Positions 1 to 37,603 of a stretch of DNA of 37,603 bases are shown one piece after another. Below the pieces are notes generated by a model that searched no databases, was not told where the DNA came from, and was given only the letters and a program-made list of their open reading frames with translations. Source of the stretch: an uncultured Pelagibacteraceae bacterium. Lineage in GTDB: Bacteria; Pseudomonadota; Alphaproteobacteria; Pelagibacterales; Pelagibacteraceae. Position 1 is the stretch's first letter; each line of letters starts with the position of its first letter. The translations under genes were made by a program, and so were the position numbers. The stretch is from NCBI GenBank assembly GCA_902539195.1, contig CACBHZ010000008.1, positions 1 to 37,603 on the forward strand, given 5' to 3'.

Positions 1-980
1 TTTATCTCCTCTTTGCTCCAATTTGGTCTATCTGCTATTGGAATCGTTAACAAATTATCAATATAATTTACTTTATTACTTTTTAAGTCTTTATGTTGTT
101 CAAAAATGTCTACTTTATGATAGTGCATTGCATGCAAAGAAGCTGCAGTAGGAGATGGCACCCAAGCACAATTTGCACCAGCTTCAAGGTGTGATATTTT
201 TTGATCTATCATGTCTTTCATTTTATCTGGCATAGCCCACATACCTTTACCTATTTGAGCAATACCTGAAAATCCACATTTTAAACCTACATCAACGTTG
301 TTATTTTCATATGCTGCTATCCATTTTGATTTTTTCATATCACCTTTTTTAATCATTGGACCTGCTTCCATGGATGTATGCATTTCATCTCCCTCAGATC
401 CAATAAACAAATTAGTTAAGTTATATCCCGCAGAAGTTTTTTTAGTTCTTGCGCCGGTTTTAATTATGTCTCCATTTGGTAAAACAACTGTTAAACCAGA
501 AATAACGGTTCTCATTGTTCCATATTTAACTGCCATTGTTCCTGAAGCTGAAGTAGATGCCATTCCACCGAGTGCAGCATCCGCACCAGGATCTATTGGA
601 AAAAATACTCCATCTTCTCTTAAATATTCATTTAATTGCTTTCTTGTTACATTTGCTTGCACTCTGCAGTCAAAATCCTCAGCATTTACACTTAAAACTT
701 TATTCATTTTTTCTAGAGAAATCGTAATACCATTTTGATTTCCAACAACATGGCCTTCAAGAGATGTGCCGGTTCCAAATGGAACCACTGGAATTTTATG
801 CTCGTTACAAATTTTTAGAATTTTTGAAACTTCTTCATTAGTTTCTGGAAATACAACTGCCTTCGATAATATTGGGTTATAGGTATCTTCCCCTCTTGCA
901 TAATTTGCACGAGTAGACTCCGAGGTAGAAAATCTTCCGTTAAATATCTTTTTTAATTCTGCTTGGACAGTTTCGTTCAT
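1..980 (-). CDS. Partial chimeric ORF: D-lactate dehydrogenase-like FAD domain joined to malate synthase G C-terminal half
   Basis: The ORF starts at ATG 978-980, reads leftward without a stop and leaves the window. Residues 1-197 resemble FAD-linked D-lactate dehydrogenase (cytochrome) or glycolate oxidase: [11 protein letters not shown] near residue 64, then [21 protein letters not shown] and [15 protein letters not shown]. The family should continue TLGIITEA. At about base 390 it becomes [12 protein letters not shown], then [16 protein letters not shown] and [21 protein letters not shown], which is malate synthase G sequence. I translated all 326 visible codons by hand and found one open frame. 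The lactate half fits the adjacent lldD-like genes; the malate synthase half does not. The substrate and cap domains of the oxidase and the N-terminal barrel part of malate synthase, with several active-site residues, would be missing. It is a real gene fusion, an in-frame deletion product or an assembly chimera; sequence alone cannot decide. Confidence 0.85.
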
Positions 981-2276: not shown

Positions 2277-3428
2277 TTAATTTCGGTAAATTATCTTTGA
2301 TCTATCTAACTCTTTTACACTTTTGCAGCCCATAAGGATCATATTTCTTCTAATTTCATCGTGCATATTTTGAAGCAGCCTCTCTACTCCTTGCTGTCCA
2401 CCCGCTCCTAAACTGAACAAAAAAGCTTTACCAAAACTACAAGCAGTTGCACCTGCAGCTAAAGCCTTGAGAACATGAGTTCCCCGTCTAACACCTCCAT
2501 CTAAAATTATCTCAAGTTTATCACCCACAGCATCTGAAATAGCCTTTAGTTGATCAAAAGGAGTTCTAGATCCGTCAAGTTGTCTACCTCCATGATTTGA
2601 TATTATTATCGCTGTACAACCAATATCAACTGCTCTCTTTGCATCCTCTACAGACATCACACCCTTTAATGCAAAAGGTCCGTCCCATTTTTTTATACAG
2701 TATTCTGCATCTTCCCAATTCATTTGTGGATCGTACTGTTCATTAACATAGTCTATTACGGATTTTGTAATGTTAGTTCCCTTGTCAGTTTTGTGTTTAA
2801 TATTTGCAAGTTCAAATTTCTTATTCGTAAAATATCTGAATAACCATCCTGGTCTCATTGCGAAATTCATTATACTTTCTAATGTGAATTTAGGAGGGGT
2901 TGTAAAACCAGTTCTGTGATCTCTTTCTCTATTTCCTGCAACCAAAGTATCAACTGTTAAGCATAATCCGTCAAAGTTTGCTCTTTTACACCTATCAATC
3001 AAATCATCAGTAAATGATTTATCTTTATGGATATAAAGTTGAAATAATTTTGGTCCACTTGATATGTTAGCAATTTCTTCAATCGAAAATGATGCCATTG
3101 TCGACATGCTATACATTGTACCAAATTTTTCTGCAGCTCTAGCTGAAGCTTTATCTCCATCGGGATGATATAAACTTTGCATAGCAGTAGGTGATAAAAA
3201 AATTGGCATATCTATTTTTCTACCAAAAACTGTGGTTGATAAATCTGGTTCTCCTACGCTTCTAAGAATATTAGGGATTAAGTCACAATCATCAAATGAA
3301 TTTGTATTTCTTTTTAAAGTGGTTTCATCATCTGCACCACCATCAATGTAATGAAAAATTGGAGCTGGAAGTTTTTTTTTGGCTAACTTTCTAAAATCTT
3401 CAAAATTATAACAATTCTTTAAGCTCAT
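2277..3428 (-). CDS. lldD: FMN-dependent alpha-hydroxy-acid dehydrogenase, L-lactate dehydrogenase type (copy 1)
   Basis: A 383-residue TIM-barrel flavoprotein of the glycolate oxidase / L-lactate dehydrogenase family, which oxidises L-2-hydroxy acids to 2-oxo acids. Family residues are present: Y27 in HYIDGGADDE, Y132 in QLYIHKD, K255 in ALKGVMS, and H279 and R282 in SNHGGRQLDGSR. The FMN-phosphate loop DGGVRRG at 310-316 is canonical. The usual Arg of the later GRAF-type motif is Lys here (FGKAF, K334). The start ATG overlaps the stop of the upstream paralogue as ATGA (3425-3428), implying translational coupling. No cytochrome domain or leader is visible, so the electron acceptor is probably quinone or another carrier (inference). 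The substrate may be lactate or another short hydroxy acid. Confidence 0.9.
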   Translation of the reverse strand: MSLKNCYNFEDFRKLAKKKLPAPIFHYIDGGADDETTLKRNTNSFDDCDLIPNILRSVGEPDLSTTVFGRKIDMPIFLSPTAMQSLYHPDGDKASARAAEKFGTMYSMSTMASFSIEEIANISSGPKLFQLYIHKDKSFTDDLIDRCKRANFDGLCLTVDTLVAGNRERDHRTGFTTPPKFTLESIMNFAMRPGWLFRYFTNKKFELANIKHKTDKGTNITKSVIDYVNEQYDPQMNWEDAEYCIKKWDGPFALKGVMSVEDAKRAVDIGCTAIIISNHGGRQLDGSRTPFDQLKAISDAVGDKLEIILDGGVRRGTHVLKALAAGATACSFGKAFLFSLGAGGQQGVERLLQNMHDEIRRNMILMGCKSVKELDRSKIIYRN

Positions 3429-4579
3429 GCATTTCGGAATCTTAAATTATTTCGATTAAGATCACTGATCTTTGTGCAGCCCATTAATTTCATGTCTCTT
3501 ACTAATTCAGTTTTATATAAGTTAAGTGCTCTCTCAACGCCTTCTTGACCTGCTGCAGCTAAAGCATAAAGATATAATCTTCCACCAGCACATGCTTTTG
3601 CACCCATAGATAAAGCTTTTAACATATGAGTACCTCTTTGAAATCCACCTTCACAAATAACATCTAACTTATCACCAACTGCATCAACAATTTCAGCTAA
3701 TTGATCGAATGGTGATCTAGATCCATCAAGTTGTCTTCCTCCATGATTTGATACCATTATACCAGTGCATCCGATATCAACTGCTCTTTTAGCATCTTCA
3801 ACACTCATAACTCCCTTAAGCGCAAAATGGCCACCCCACTGAGAGCACAATTTTTCAGCATCGTCCCAGTTCATAGATTGATCCAACATAGTAGAAAAAT
3901 AATTACCAATTGAAGTATTTGTGTCAGTTCCTTCTTTAACGAAATCTTGAAGATGTGGTAGTTCAAATTTTCCTTTGGTTAAATAATTTATTCCCCACAT
4001 TGGTTTTGTGGCAAAACTAAACAAACTGGAAAGTGTTAATTTTGGAGGTGATGTAAATCCAGTTCTTAAATCTCTTTCACGATTTCCTCCTGTTATCGTA
4101 TCAACAGTTAAAGCCATCACATCAAATTTTGCTGCTTTTGCTCGTTCTAAACAAGAGTCATTTAATCCTCTGTCTTTATGGAAATAAAATTGAAACATTT
4201 TTGGTGTGTCTATTAAAGATGAAATTTCCTCAACGCTAACTGTAGCCAATGCCGAAACACCAAACATCGTATTAAACTTCTTTGCAGCTTTTCCAACTGC
4301 TCTTTCTCCTTCATAGTGAAATAACCTTTGCAAAGCTGTTGGAGAACAATAAAAAGGTAAATCTAGTTTTTTTCCAAAAATAGTTGTCGACAAATCCACA
4401 TTTTCAACACCTCTTAAGACATTTGGAACTAAGTCAACGTCATTAAATGCACTACTATTTCTTGCATAAGTTATTTCATCATCTGCAGCCCCATCGATAT
4501 AATGAAATATTGGGGATGGAAGCTTTTGTTTTGCAAGTTTTCTAAAGTCATAAAAGTTATGACAATCTTTTAATCTCAT
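3425..4579 (-). CDS. FMN-dependent alpha-hydroxy-acid dehydrogenase paralogue (copy 2)
   Basis: A 384-residue paralogue of the gene downstream of it, alignable over its length with few gaps. Y27, Y132, K255, H279 and R282 are all kept. The FMN-binding loop differs: EGGFQRG at 310-316 where the family and the neighbour have DGG(V/I)RRG, so the loop Asp is Glu and the first Arg is Gln. The later GGRLYLY keeps the Arg that copy 1 changed to Lys. It starts 8 bases after the pagL-like gene and overlaps copy 1 by 4 bases. It probably oxidises a related 2-hydroxy acid, possibly as part of a hetero-oligomer with copy 1 (inference). Confidence 0.85.
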   Translation of the reverse strand: MRLKDCHNFYDFRKLAKQKLPSPIFHYIDGAADDEITYARNSSAFNDVDLVPNVLRGVENVDLSTTIFGKKLDLPFYCSPTALQRLFHYEGERAVGKAAKKFNTMFGVSALATVSVEEISSLIDTPKMFQFYFHKDRGLNDSCLERAKAAKFDVMALTVDTITGGNRERDLRTGFTSPPKLTLSSLFSFATKPMWGINYLTKGKFELPHLQDFVKEGTDTNTSIGNYFSTMLDQSMNWDDAEKLCSQWGGHFALKGVMSVEDAKRAVDIGCTGIMVSNHGGRQLDGSRSPFDQLAEIVDAVGDKLDVICEGGFQRGTHMLKALSMGAKACAGGRLYLYALAAAGQEGVERALNLYKTELVRDMKLMGCTKISDLNRNNLRFRNA

Positions 4580-15759: not shown

Positions 15760-17249
15760 TATGCAGTATTTTGTTTAATAAATTTTTCTGCCTCAGCTAA
15801 AATTAATTTTTTTCTATCAGGTTTCATTTTATCGAAAATTCTAACCATCATAGAAAGTCTAGGATTTTTTAAAAAGAAGGCTCTATTTCTATTTATGAAT
15901 CTCCAATAAAGACCATCCATGGTATTGCACCATTCTCCTTTTTTAAAATCCATCATTTTCATGAAATAAGCGGAGCCGCAAATATATGGTTTTGTTGCAA
16001 ATATTCCTCCATCACTGAAAAGCCCCATTCCATAAACATTCGGGACCATTACCCAGTCAGAGGAATCCACAAACATTTCCATAAACCATTTGTAAACATA
16101 CGTTGGCTTAACTTCACATAAATTCATTATGTTTGATAAAATCATTAACCTTTCAATATGATGTGACCAACCATAATTCACTGCATTTTTAATAGCATAA
16201 TCTAGAGGTGGTAATCCCGTTGTTCCTTCATACCATGAATTTTTCATTTTTCTATTTTGTTTAAAAAAATTTCTAGTTTCCATTTCTTTTGAATAACTTT
16301 GATATATTCCCCTCATAAATTCTCTCCATCCGATTACTTGACGTATATAACCCTCTAAGGAATTTAATCTTATTTTATTTTTGTTGTGAAAATCTAAAAC
16401 TTTTTTAATTATAAATTCTGGAGTGATAAGACCTAAATTGATGTAAGGACTTAAAGCACTATGAAATAATATATTGTCTTTCTGATCAACTGCATCTTCA
16501 TAATCCCCAAATAAATTTGATTTCTCTTTAATAAAAAAATTTAATAATTTAATTACATCATCATATTCCGTAGCAAACCAAAAGTCTTTCGTATTACCTG
16601 GGTGACTTTTAAAATTTTTATCAATTAAAATTTTAAGTTTTTTCGTATGAATAGTCTCAGTAATTTTAGGAAATTTGGGTATAGATATATTTTTTGGAAG
16701 TTTATTTCGATTTTCTTCATCAAAACTCCATTTACCTCCTTCTGGATTACCATCTTTTTTCATGAGTATATCCAAATCTCTTCTAGTCTCTTTATAAAAA
16801 ACTGCCATAAAAGGTTTTTTTGATTTCGATAAATAGTTTTTAAATTTTTCTCTAGAATTTAAAAACATTGGTGTTTGAATAATATTCCATTTAATTTTTT
16901 CCTTTTTTAAAAAATTAGTAATTTTATTTTCAAAAAACTTATCCTCGATTTCGAAACTTGAAATTTCTTTAATTTTTTTTGCTTTAATTATTTTTTTTAA
17001 TTTTTCTGTGTAATCCAGCTTGAAAGATTTATCCTCGATCGAAGAATATTCTAATTTAAATTTATTTTTTTTTAATCTGTCTGCGTGAGATCGCATGCAA
17101 GATAAGAACAATAATATCTTTTGTTTATGATGCTTTTCGTACGTACAAAGCTGATAATCTTCAGCCATAAAGAAAAAGTGGTCTTTTCTGTACTTTTCTA
17201 GATATTTTTCTGAGAAAAGCTGATTTCCAAGTAGAAAAAATAATTTCAT
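15759..17249 (-). CDS. Cryptochrome / (6-4) photolyase-like (FeS-BCP-related) protein
   Basis: A 496-residue flavoprotein of the PhrB/CryB-related class: an N-terminal alpha/beta antenna domain (about 1-135), then the helical FAD domain with LFHSALSPYINLGLITP, YIRQVIGWREFMRGIYQ, WSHHIERLMILSNIMNLC, KWFMEMFVDSSDWVMVPN and FSDGGIFATKPY. The His pair at 363-364 matches that of bacterial (6-4) photolyases. Of the expected cluster cysteines, C378 and C441 lie in plausible places, but the CxxC of the YCxGC region is absent (MMDFKKGEW at 432-440, about ten residues shorter), so a [4Fe-4S] cluster is doubtful. It is divergent from the SDR gene by 27 bases and coupled to DUF2256. Confidence 0.88.
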   Translation of the reverse strand: MKLFFLLGNQLFSEKYLEKYRKDHFFFMAEDYQLCTYEKHHKQKILLFLSCMRSHADRLKKNKFKLEYSSIEDKSFKLDYTEKLKKIIKAKKIKEISSFEIEDKFFENKITNFLKKEKIKWNIIQTPMFLNSREKFKNYLSKSKKPFMAVFYKETRRDLDILMKKDGNPEGGKWSFDEENRNKLPKNISIPKFPKITETIHTKKLKILIDKNFKSHPGNTKDFWFATEYDDVIKLLNFFIKEKSNLFGDYEDAVDQKDNILFHSALSPYINLGLITPEFIIKKVLDFHNKNKIRLNSLEGYIRQVIGWREFMRGIYQSYSKEMETRNFFKQNRKMKNSWYEGTTGLPPLDYAIKNAVNYGWSHHIERLMILSNIMNLCEVKPTYVYKWFMEMFVDSSDWVMVPNVYGMGLFSDGGIFATKPYICGSAYFMKMMDFKKGEWCNTMDGLYWRFINRNRAFFLKNPRLSMMVRIFDKMKPDRKKLILAEAEKFIKQNTA

Positions 17250-17276
17250 TAACTATATATAACTCTTTAAAAATTT

Positions 17277-17987
17277 ATGTCAGAAAAATATTTAGTAGTA
17301 GGTGCGACAGGATCTATCGGATCTAATTTAGCCGAACAGTTATACGCAGCCGGCAAAGAAGTGCATTTAATTGGTAGGGATGAAGAGAGAACAAAATCTT
17401 TGTCTGAAAAACTAAATTGTAAATATACAGTCTCTGATGTTTTAGAAAATGGTTTTGTTGAAAAGATTAAGTCCGAAATAGATGATATCAAAGGTATAGC
17501 TTATTGTGTTGGTTCAATTGATTTAAAACCTTTGAGAATGGTTTCAGAACAAGATTTTACAAAATGTATGAAACTAAATTTATATTCTGCAGTAGATTTA
17601 ATTAAAGGTTATCAAGAAAGTTTAAAAAAAAATAAAGGGTCGATTGTTTTGTTTTCAACTGTTGCTGCTCAAAGGGGTTTTACAAATCATGCAATTATAG
17701 CTTCAACTAAAGCAGCTGTTGAAGGATTAACTGTTTCTTTAGCAGCAGAATTCGCTCCTAATATTAGAGTAAATTGCATTGCTCCAAGTTTAACTAATTC
17801 AAAAATTGCAGAGCCAATGCTAAAAAATAAAGTTTTAGCTGATGGTATAGCAAAAGCCCATCCATTAAAAAGACTTGGAGAAGGAAAAGACTCAGCTTCG
17901 CTTGCAAAATTTCTAATAACTGAAGACAGTTCTTGGGTTACAGGACAAATTATTGCTGTCGATGGTGGTAGATCAAAACTTTCATAG
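17277..17987 (+). CDS. SDR-family oxidoreductase lacking the catalytic Tyr
   Basis: A 236-residue Rossmann-fold protein. The nucleotide-binding site is VVGATGSIG (7-15). The active-site Ser is S127 in LFSTVA and Lys is K145 in IIASTKAAVEG, but the position four before Lys, normally Tyr (YxxxK), is I141. The C-terminus has RVNCIAPSLTNSKIAEPM and WVTGQIIAVDGG, typical of classical SDRs. The fold is certain; dehydrogenase activity is doubtful without the Tyr, and it may be a binding or regulatory protein. It is divergent from the cryptochrome gene and lies 1 base before the PQQ dehydrogenase-like gene. Confidence 0.9.
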   Translation: MSEKYLVVGATGSIGSNLAEQLYAAGKEVHLIGRDEERTKSLSEKLNCKYTVSDVLENGFVEKIKSEIDDIKGIAYCVGSIDLKPLRMVSEQDFTKCMKLNLYSAVDLIKGYQESLKKNKGSIVLFSTVAAQRGFTNHAIIASTKAAVEGLTVSLAAEFAPNIRVNCIAPSLTNSKIAEPMLKNKVLADGIAKAHPLKRLGEGKDSASLAKFLITEDSSWVTGQIIAVDGGRSKLS

Positions 17988-17988
17988 A

Positions 17989-19053
17989 GTGAAGAAATTA
18001 TTATTTCTTTTATCATTAATACTATTATCAACTAATTCATTTAGTAAAAATTTTAATTTTAATAAAATTATTGAATTAGAAGCACCTTGGGGTTCGTCGT
18101 TCGTTAATGATAATGAAATGATTGTTACCGAGAAAGGTGGCAAAATAAAACTTGTTAATATTTCAACAAGAGAGATGAGTGAAATTGGTCATAACTTAAA
18201 TTTTGTAGAATATGGACAGGGAGGATTATTGGATATTCTGTATAATGAAGATTACATATATATCTCATACACAGAAAATAGAAATAATTGGAAGACTAGT
18301 ACTTCAATTGCACGTGCAAAATTTAATAAAAACAAATTAAATTTTAAAAATATTTTTCAAGCCAATCCACCAATTGACTCGCCTTATCATTTTGGTTCAA
18401 GACTGGTAATTAAAGGCAATTATTTATTTGCTTCTGCAGGTGAAAGAGGTGGGGGAATGATTGCTCAAGATGGAAATAAACATCCAGGAAGTATAATTAG
18501 AATTTATCTAGATGGTGGCATTCCAAAAGACAATCCTCGTTTTGAGGGGAAATCAGACTGGCTACCTGAAATATATCAAATTGGTGTAAGAAATCCTCAA
18601 GGTTTAGCTCTATCACCTTTTGATGGAAAAATTTATATGAGCAATCATGGTGCAAAAGGAGGCGATTGGTTTGGTGAAGCAAAGAAAGGTGAAAATTATG
18701 GTTGGAAAATTCTTGGATGGGGTGGCACAAATTATTCAGGTATACCAATAGGGCCAAAATGGAAACCTGGCTTTACAAAAGCCATTCAATATTGGGTTCC
18801 ATCTATAGCCACAAGTGCAATCACAATTTATAAAGGTAATGAATTTAAAGAATGGAATGGTCATGCATTAATTACTTCTCTTAAAGATAAGTCTTTAAGA
18901 AAATTAGAGTTTAATGATTTATCAAACGTAAAAGAAGAAATAATATTTAAAGATAAAATTGGAAGAATCAGAGACATACAAATTCATCCTATAAATGGTA
19001 AACTATATTTTTTAAATCAAGATGGATTGTGGTTGATGAAAAAATCTAGTTAG
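17989..19053 (+). CDS. PQQ-dependent aldose sugar dehydrogenase (YliI-like), exported
   Basis: A GTG start at 17989-17991 gives 354 residues and a clean signal peptide (KKLLFLLSLILLSTNSFS); the longer frame upstream overlaps the SDR gene and puts 12 non-signal residues before it. The beta-propeller signatures are GSSFVNDNEMIVTEKGG, SPYHFGSRLV, RNPQGLALSPFDGKIYMSNHG and YGWKILGWGG. Family members oxidise sugars in the periplasm using PQQ. No PQQ synthesis gene is in the window, so cofactor supply is unknown. It follows the SDR stop by 1 base; the 3' end overlaps the convergent MBL gene by 8 bases. Confidence 0.88.
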   Translation: MKKLLFLLSLILLSTNSFSKNFNFNKIIELEAPWGSSFVNDNEMIVTEKGGKIKLVNISTREMSEIGHNLNFVEYGQGGLLDILYNEDYIYISYTENRNNWKTSTSIARAKFNKNKLNFKNIFQANPPIDSPYHFGSRLVIKGNYLFASAGERGGGMIAQDGNKHPGSIIRIYLDGGIPKDNPRFEGKSDWLPEIYQIGVRNPQGLALSPFDGKIYMSNHGAKGGDWFGEAKKGENYGWKILGWGGTNYSGIPIGPKWKPGFTKAIQYWVPSIATSAITIYKGNEFKEWNGHALITSLKDKSLRKLEFNDLSNVKEEIIFKDKIGRIRDIQIHPINGKLYFLNQDGLWLMKKSS

Positions 19054-27746: not shown

Positions 27747-28817
27747 ATGAATAAAAGACCAATAATATTAGGAATTGAGACAAGTTGCGATGAAACAGCG
27801 GTTTCAATTATTCAAGATCACGAAAGTGGTATACCAAAAATTTTATCAAATATAGTTTCCAGTCAATTTGACATTCATAAAGAATTTGGGGGAGTTGTTC
27901 CAGAATTAGCTGCAAGGTCACATATTGAAAAAATTAATTTAATTGCAAAAAAAGCTTTGGATGAAAGTGGTGTAACTCTTGATAAAATATCTGCTGTTGC
28001 CACAACATCTGGACCTGGTTTAATAATTTGTCTTAGTGTTGGTTTAAATTTTGCAAAATCACTCGCATCGTCCTTAAGGGTTCCATTTATTGGAGTTAAT
28101 CATCTAGAGGGTCATGCTTTAAGTCCAAGACTTCAAACTAGTATTAATTATCCTTATTTACTTCTGTTGATTTCGGGTGGACACAGTCAATTTTTAAGTG
28201 TGAATGGATTAGGTAGTTACACAAGATTAGGAACTACTATTGATGATGCTTTAGGAGAAGCATTTGACAAAACTGCAAAACTTTTAGGAATAGAATTTCC
28301 AGGTGGTCCAAAGTTAGAAAAATTTGCAGAAAAGGGTGATCCAAATAAATATAAATTACCCAAACCAATAATTAATAAAGGTGGATGCAATTTATCTTTT
28401 GCAGGACTTAAAACTGCGATACTAAGAATAACAAAATATATAAATTCAGAACAAGAAAAATATGATTTAGCAGCGTCTTTTCAAAAAACTATCGAAGAAA
28501 TATTGTATATTAAATCTAGAATTGCTTTTAAGGAATTTTTAAAAAACTCATTTAAAGAAAAATCTTTTATCGTTGCGGGAGGAGTTGCAGCAAACAAAGG
28601 TATACGAAAAAAACTAATCGAAGTAAGCAATGAGAATGGCTTTAAAGCAATTTTTCCAGATATTAAACTATGTGGAGACAACGCAGCAATGATCGCATTG
28701 GTAGGTCTAGAAAAATATAAAATAAAGAAATTTGATAATATGGATTTAGAAGCTAGTCCAAGATTAGCTTTGGATGCAAGTGCTAAATTTTTAAAAGGAG
28801 CTGGCGTAGTTTTGTAA
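27747..28817 (+). CDS. tsaD: tRNA N6-threonylcarbamoyladenosine transferase
   Basis: A 356-residue ASKHA-fold enzyme that, with TsaB/C/E, makes t6A37 in ANN-decoding tRNAs. ILGIETSCDETAVSII, GGVVPELAARSH and the metal-binding HLEGH (H119, H123) are visible, as are LLISGGHSQFL, TIDDALGEAFDKTAKLLG and CGDNAAMIA. Its stop overlaps the next start as TAATG (28815-28819). Confidence 0.97.
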   Translation: MNKRPIILGIETSCDETAVSIIQDHESGIPKILSNIVSSQFDIHKEFGGVVPELAARSHIEKINLIAKKALDESGVTLDKISAVATTSGPGLIICLSVGLNFAKSLASSLRVPFIGVNHLEGHALSPRLQTSINYPYLLLLISGGHSQFLSVNGLGSYTRLGTTIDDALGEAFDKTAKLLGIEFPGGPKLEKFAEKGDPNKYKLPKPIINKGGCNLSFAGLKTAILRITKYINSEQEKYDLAASFQKTIEEILYIKSRIAFKEFLKNSFKEKSFIVAGGVAANKGIRKKLIEVSNENGFKAIFPDIKLCGDNAAMIALVGLEKYKIKKFDNMDLEASPRLALDASAKFLKGAGVVL

Positions 28818-36821: not shown

Positions 36822-37603
36822 GGACTGCATTAATATCATTATCAGATAAATCGGGCATATCTAAATTATTACATTTGTTAGATAAGAATAAAATTAAAAT
36901 CATAAGCTCTGGTGGAACTTATAAAAAAATAAAAAGAATGGGCTTTAAATGTCTAGAGGTGTCAAAATTCACAAATGCTGAGGAGGTTTTAGATGGCAGA
37001 GTCAAAACTTTACATCCAAAAATTCATTCAGGGATATTAAATGTTAGAAAAAATAAAAGACACCAAAAACAGATGAAAATTAACAAATATGAAAATATTG
37101 ACTTAGTAATTGTAAATTTTTATCCTTTTGAGGAAGTTTTATTAAAAAAAAATAATCATGATAAAATAATAGAGAATATTGATATAGGTGGTCCAACAAT
37201 GGTAAGAGCTGCCGCTAAGAATTACAAAGATGTAACAGTTGTTAGTAATATAAATCAGTATGAAAATTTTATAAACGAATTGAGTAAAAATAAAGGTTCA
37301 ACAAGTCTTAAATTTAGGAAAAAGCTAGCTGGAGAGGCTTTTATGGAAACGGCATATTATGAGTCTAAAATTTTTAAATATTTTAACGATAAAATAGATA
37401 ATATTTTTCCAGATAAAAATATAATATCTGGTAAGCTAGTCGAAAAAGCAAGATATGGTGAAAATCCTCACCAAAAAGCAGCAATTTATAGTCAAAATTC
37501 TAATCAAGAAATTATTCAAATTAGCGGTAAGCAATTAAGTTATAACAATTATAATGATATATATTCTGCATTAAGTATCACAAAATCATTACCAAATAAA
37601 AAA
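36791..37603 (+). CDS. purH: Bifunctional AICAR transformylase/IMP cyclohydrolase (3' truncated by window)
   Basis: The first 271 codons of purH, open to the window edge. RTALISLSDKSGI, SSGGTYKKIKRMG, RVKTLHPKIHSGIL, NFYPF, IDIGGPTMVRAAAKNYKDV and RYGENPHQKAA are diagnostic. The start ATG lies inside the end of the heparinase-like gene (31-base overlap); ribosome coupling is likely. It catalyses the last two steps of IMP synthesis using 10-formyl-THF, the FolD product. The AICAR transformylase domain is mostly outside the window. Confidence 0.96.
   Translation, partial: MEIRKDKIKIRTALISLSDKSGISKLLHLLDKNKIKIISSGGTYKKIKRMGFKCLEVSKFTNAEEVLDGRVKTLHPKIHSGILNVRKNKRHQKQMKINKYENIDLVIVNFYPFEEVLLKKNNHDKIIENIDIGGPTMVRAAAKNYKDVTVVSNINQYENFINELSKNKGSTSLKFRKKLAGEAFMETAYYESKIFKYFNDKIDNIFPDKNIISGKLVEKARYGENPHQKAAIYSQNSNQEIIQISGKQLSYNNYNDIYSALSITKSLPNKK

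Follow-up and report, generated by a model that had tools for sequence, protein, structure and literature searches.

The isocitrate lyase–malate synthase fusion is among the known gene fusions named in the available part of PMC4921024. A literature search for a fusion of malate synthase with glycolate oxidase, conducted at the level of titles and the first part of abstracts, returned no example; this result describes those fields and is not a claim about the printed record.

A second class of comparable joins is formed by the chimeras of multiple displacement amplification (MDA). In the available part of a study of single-cell Escherichia coli MDA, 475 chimeras were mapped; 85% of MDA chimeras were inverted, whereas 69 of those mapped were direct. 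The distance between the joined segments exceeded 10 kb in 58 of the 69, and the segments stood in reversed order in about half the cases (Lasken and Stockwell 2007; PMC1855051). Complementarity of at least 2 bp was reported there for only 27.6% of the direct chimeras joining segments more than 10 kb apart. The accessible text of PMC4595205 gives chimera distances mostly of up to about 5,000 nt and overlaps peaking at 6 nt, and describes direct chimeras as harder to form. Additionally, a benchmark of the workflow behind a large marine single-cell collection, which may not be the one used for the genome considered here, reports in its accessible part a mean of 1.5 misassemblies per 100 kb, and rates single amplified genomes as less prone to chimerism, in the sense of a mixing of organisms, than metagenome-assembled ones (PMC11247762).

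The window analyzed here is a 37,603 bp stretch of DNA comprising an entire contig (C8) of a draft Pelagibacteraceae genome of 880,559 bp, 43 contigs, and 63% estimated completeness; window base 1 is thus contig base 1. At this end of the contig, one open reading frame joins the first part of an FAD-dependent oxidoreductase to an internal part of malate synthase G (GlcB). We consider it very likely that the joined frame is an artefact, a chimera of either amplification (MDA) or assembly, at a contig end that was presumably poorly covered.

Structure of the joined reading frame

The frame runs on the minus strand from base 980 to base 3, comprises 326 codons without a stop, and exits past the contig start. 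Pfam profiles place FAD_binding_4 (PF01565) at residues 40–176 (E 5.7e-39) and MS_TIM-barrel (PF01274) at residues 195–310 (E 1.2e-19); both lie above curated cut-offs, though the latter match covers only profile positions 118–245 of 248. Among NCBIfam models, residues 42–197 match the start of glcD (TIGR00387), and residues 192–326 correspond to positions 458–593 of the 726 in the malate synthase G profile (TIGR01345). Both NCBIfam scores fall under the whole-protein cut-offs, as is expected because the halves are fragments. Searches against solved structures returned a probable mitochondrial D-lactate dehydrogenase as the best match to residues 12–198 (1e-49) and malate synthase G for residues 191–326 (best 1.4e-52). 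The frame and its neighbors, all on the minus strand, are as follows:

1..392, minus strand: malate synthase G fragment, approximately residues 458–587 of 716 in the numbering of relative G431, misplaced at the contig tip (MS_TIM-barrel)
390..392, minus strand: junction codon GGA, three bases common to both parents (separate genes of G431 and G273)
390..980, minus strand: 5′ part of an FAD oxidoreductase of the GlcD/D-lactate dehydrogenase type, codons 1–197, in its normal place (FAD_binding_4, DNA identity, collinearity with G431 contig C1)
1018..2187, minus strand: PLP-dependent aminotransferase, a normal neighbor of the FAD gene (beside the intact FAD gene in locus L137)
2277..3428, minus strand: FMN-dependent dehydrogenase, L-lactate dehydrogenase-like (PF01070, E 6.4e-134; under NCBIfam cut-offs)
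3425..4579, minus strand: second FMN-dependent dehydrogenase, L-lactate dehydrogenase-like (PF01070, E 1.5e-127; under NCBIfam cut-offs)

The initial annotation described an uninterrupted frame that changes near base 390 from a flavin domain to malate synthase G, and comparison with relatives confirms this, placing the switch at window bases 390–392, the GGA codon of residue 197. DNA matches to relatives end at base 390 on the FAD side and at base 392 on the malate synthase side; with a 180-base query around the junction, the match boundaries were 1–91 and 89–180. The FAD gene continues from GGA into TLGIITE, and the malate synthase of G431 and G273 reaches GGA from FLDRTG. The corresponding codon in G186 is GGG, so that the 3-base overlap rests on G431 and G273. 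Random joins within the window show an overlap of three bases or more in 8.3% of cases; given this chance rate, the overlap is weak support, and no proof, for priming by short complementarity.

Both proteins are broken mid-domain at the junction, as had also been recognized from the sequence at the outset. The intact FAD gene of G431 encodes 457 amino acids, carries on as TLGIITE, and contains FAD-oxidase_C (PF02913), a domain for which Pfam gives no match in the joined frame; the intact protein itself scores below the GlcD cut-off (340 vs. 567.9 bits). Open frames of the FAD gene in relatives measure 408–471 aa in a search of 101 genomes and 457–495 aa in a search of 30. The malate synthase of G431 is 716 aa long, and by coordinates 457 of its residues, missing from the joined frame, precede the junction point. 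The G431 gene contains all four domains of malate synthase G (PF20656, PF20658, PF01274, and PF20659), a full set that Pfam does not recover in the joined frame, though the C-terminal domain could lie past the contig end.

The two halves also differ in their nearest relatives, which are G186 and G010 for malate synthase and G431 for the FAD part. The malate synthase piece has 95.2% DNA identity to G186 (locus L139) and 94.1% to G010 (L033), and the FAD part, up to base 390, reaches at most 99.7% to L073 and L049, which are probably from the same genome.

The FMN dehydrogenase genes are collinear with the FAD locus of a relative, which broadly bears out the earlier remark that the flanking lactate genes match the first half of the frame but not the second. 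Since both score under the NCBIfam lactate dehydrogenase cut-offs, lactate is only a possible substrate. DNA identity across the tandem copies at 2277–4579, comparing the window with a relative, is approximately 67%.

Distribution of the junction among relatives

When the junction peptide was searched as a degenerate DNA pattern, with no mismatches allowed, it was found in 1 of 399 genomes of the same genus, namely the source genome itself, and in 0 of the 398 others. The recurrence in related genomes that the initial annotation had named as a check is therefore not seen with this pattern, and the reading of the frame as a natural fusion is not supported.

Searches with the joined protein give a consistent picture. 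Matches were recovered in 62 of 101 genomes, the source genome included. Among 60 other genomes of the genus from this search (G001–G060), 39 have a strong match to the FAD half ending at residue 198, in frames of 408–471 aa, and 54 have the malate synthase half, in frames of 753 aa at most and 273 aa at least, the shortest lying near a contig start. Frames of other FAD oxidases (27–35% identity) gave weak matches that extend 3–59 residues beyond residue 198 over the searches of 101 and 30 genomes, and 3–31 residues in the former; all of them stop short of the malate synthase end and were left uncounted. Among the protein matches listed for the 101 genomes and for the 30, one that covers both the FAD domain and the malate synthase part occurs in the source genome alone.

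At the DNA level, the 180 bases around the junction matched 365 of the 399 genomes, and among the matches listed, all those outside the source genome cover one side of the junction, with a few bases beyond at most. None of 131 fetched loci, several of which come from the same genomes, crosses the junction. The best 80 of 588 related loci all match the FAD half (residues 1–197 or 1–208) and are titled Pelagibacteraceae, Pelagibacterales, or Pelagibacter.

A second discontinuity in the window provides a control for these searches. At window positions 28808–28817, between an EVE-domain gene and a 356-aa gene that we take to be tsaD-like, G431 has approximately 4.3 kb of extra DNA, comprising four frames, one of them a carbamoyltransferase-family gene, that are missing in the source genome. 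DNA identity to G431 is 95–98% before this point and 88% after it. In 8 of the 60 other genomes a single match extends across the point, which is for this reason taken as a natural island difference; its recovery in relatives indicates that a natural junction does turn up again in searches of this kind.

The gene order of the two parents was surveyed, with the joined protein as query, in 30 hand-picked genomes, most of them chosen by completeness, with G431, G186, and G273 included as close relatives or from earlier comparisons, and G046 and G042 on account of the shared contig that the search of 101 genomes had revealed. The FAD gene was found in 28 of the 30, malate synthase in 29, and both, as separate matches, in 27. 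In 10 of these genomes the two genes share a contig. Eight of the 10 (G273, G195, G338, G428, G208, G046, G245, and G425), whose assemblies measure approximately 1.0–1.5 Mb, carry both genes on the same strand, malate synthase preceding the FAD gene by 214–234 kb; G293 and G042 have them on opposite strands at distances of 132 and 108 kb.

Context of the junction in the source assembly

Because the window begins at the contig end, the malate synthase piece is merely a 392-base contig tip. Only these first 389–392 bases are out of place: the remainder, from base 390 to base 37,602, lines up with contig C1 of G431 and shows no rearrangement, except for the single 4.3-kb island difference. Separate intact copies of dld and glcB, which the initial annotation had suggested seeking in this genome, were found for neither gene. 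The assembly contains no second match to the malate synthase barrel and no intact second FAD gene, the sole FAD-oxidase_C match being a 970-aa frame on contig C5.

The normal surroundings of glcB are nonetheless partly assembled. Contig C26 (bases 1–2078) matches bases 1–2078 of the G431 glcB locus (L138), and contig C22 (bases 1–1770) matches bases 17232–19000 of the same locus, so that the starts of the two contigs flank the position that glcB normally occupies. Between their counterparts on L138, only the 392 bases of C8 match, plus a short weak hit. The usual neighbors of glcB are therefore present in the source genome, with approximately 15 kb between them missing from the assembly. Similarly, the 25.9 kb of G431 past the break in the FAD gene has only short weak matches in the source assembly, and the genes beyond this break may be unassembled or truly absent.

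Identity to G431 is 84% for C26 and 78% for C22, versus 97% around the FAD locus, which indicates that relatedness varies strongly along the source genome.

Origin of the junction

We interpret the in-frame fusion as most likely not a real feature but an ordinary accidental join of two distant genes; in the living cell, the FAD gene and glcB are most likely two whole, separate genes lying far from each other. A strand copied within the FAD gene would have been joined to an unrelated site inside glcB, perhaps via the 3-base match; approximately 390 bases of the chimeric molecule would then have been assembled before the contig ended, in a region presumably too thinly covered for correct reads to outvote the chimera. 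Most likely, phi29 polymerase would have produced it during MDA of a single cell, as a chimera of direct orientation and long distance, though a misjoin in the library or the assembly graph would look no different. The observations themselves are the junction, its place at the contig end, its absence from the examined relatives, their gene order, and the contig starts that flank glcB; the single amplified genome source, the phi29 mechanism, and the low coverage are what we infer. The AG- and AH- isolate codes of many relatives are presumably single-cell (single amplified genome) codes; the AG-/AH- titles themselves carry no single-cell statement, and 23 of the best 80 titles are prefixed “MAG:”. 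An inverted-repeat search of the window returned one A/T-rich pair only, and no inverted near-copy of the kind typical of MDA.

At face value, the lack of an intact copy of either gene in the source assembly speaks against an artefact. However, both gene places fall in stretches missing from an assembly of only 63% completeness. The malate synthase piece may possibly have come from a second cell or a contaminant, since the two halves differ in their nearest relatives; in this donor comparison, C26 is approximately 84% identical to each of G431, G186, and G273, alike for all three.

A real rearrangement in one cell or lineage is improbable. It could be a translocation, or the ~220 kb that separate glcB from the FAD gene could have been tandemly duplicated or excised as a circle. 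With glcB upstream on the same strand in 8 of 10 informative genomes, the orientation of the FAD 5′ part to the glcB 3′ part is the seam expected from a tandem duplication or circle, and the absence of intact copies from a 63%-complete assembly is compatible with their existence; under such a rearrangement the joined frame would probably be non-functional, with intact copies possibly still present elsewhere. Against this, the junction occurs in none of the 398 other genomes of the genus, and the contig stops 392 bases past it without running into the remainder of glcB and its neighbors. Additionally, the 15 kb around glcB is missing, whereas by our reasoning a duplication should raise coverage there. 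If true, the seam of a ~220-kb duplication or circle would mark a structural event that is unusual in streamlined bacteria of the sea.

A natural, selected fusion of an FAD-dependent 2-hydroxy-acid oxidase with malate synthase is much less likely than a real duplication or circle junction, and we give it negligible weight. Glycolate oxidation yields glyoxylate, the substrate of malate synthase; this link would permit a channeling story, a single open frame does cross the junction, and the isocitrate lyase–malate synthase case offers a precedent. If true, such a fusion would suggest 2-hydroxy-acid oxidation coupled to glyoxylate use; the evidence speaks against it. The joined frame lacks FAD-oxidase_C and approximately 457 malate synthase residues, including the start of the barrel, and by reasoning, chance would put two genes of the same direction in frame at about 1 of 6 joins in a nearly fully coding genome. 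The natural fusion is rejected on its absence from the relatives examined and on the breakage of both proteins mid-domain.

An in vivo deletion that fused the two loci is equally hard to credit: the genes do share a direction in 8 of the 10 informative genomes, but in those eight glcB comes first and the FAD gene follows 214–234 kb later, so that a deletion yielding FAD 5′–glcB 3′ must remove the rest of the circular chromosome; the opposite strands in the other two preclude a deletion join without inversion; and both glcB flanks are kept in the source assembly, at the starts of C26 and C22. Deletion is thus contradicted by gene order and the retained flanks, unless the source genome is rearranged relative to all ten. 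Of the two origins that the initial annotation had offered as at least as likely as a fusion, the assembly chimera, taken to include an amplification chimera, is supported and the deletion is not.

The artefactual reading serves mainly as a warning: where a draft contig ends in a chimera, the frame can pass for an in-frame fusion protein with two recognized domains, and gene-fusion surveys or protein databases could accept it as genuine.

Comparison with known systems

The first half of the frame resembles FAD oxidases of the GlcD/D-lactate dehydrogenase type (PF01565 plus PF02913) in its FAD-binding domain, up to residue 197, but those enzymes have a C-terminal FAD-oxidase_C domain that is not present here. 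The second half shares approximately 130 barrel residues with malate synthase G, at 95% DNA identity to the G186 gene; it differs in that the N-terminal 457 residues are missing and the C-terminal part exits the contig. Isocitrate lyase–malate synthase fusions consist of complete enzymes placed end to end, in contrast to the two proteins broken mid-domain in the joined frame. As in this frame, malate synthase is involved in those fusions, though the fusion is real there (PMC4921024, accessible part).

A further likeness is to the MDA chimeras, as characterized in the available part of PMC1855051. There, as here, two distant segments are joined, the direct chimeras being mostly long-distance, with a reversed order in about half of cases. 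Most of the chimeras described there are inverted and lie within 10 kb, whereas the present join is known from an assembled contig alone. Being direct, very distant, and reversed in order, the junction would fit the minority class of MDA chimeras rather than the inverted, short-range majority.
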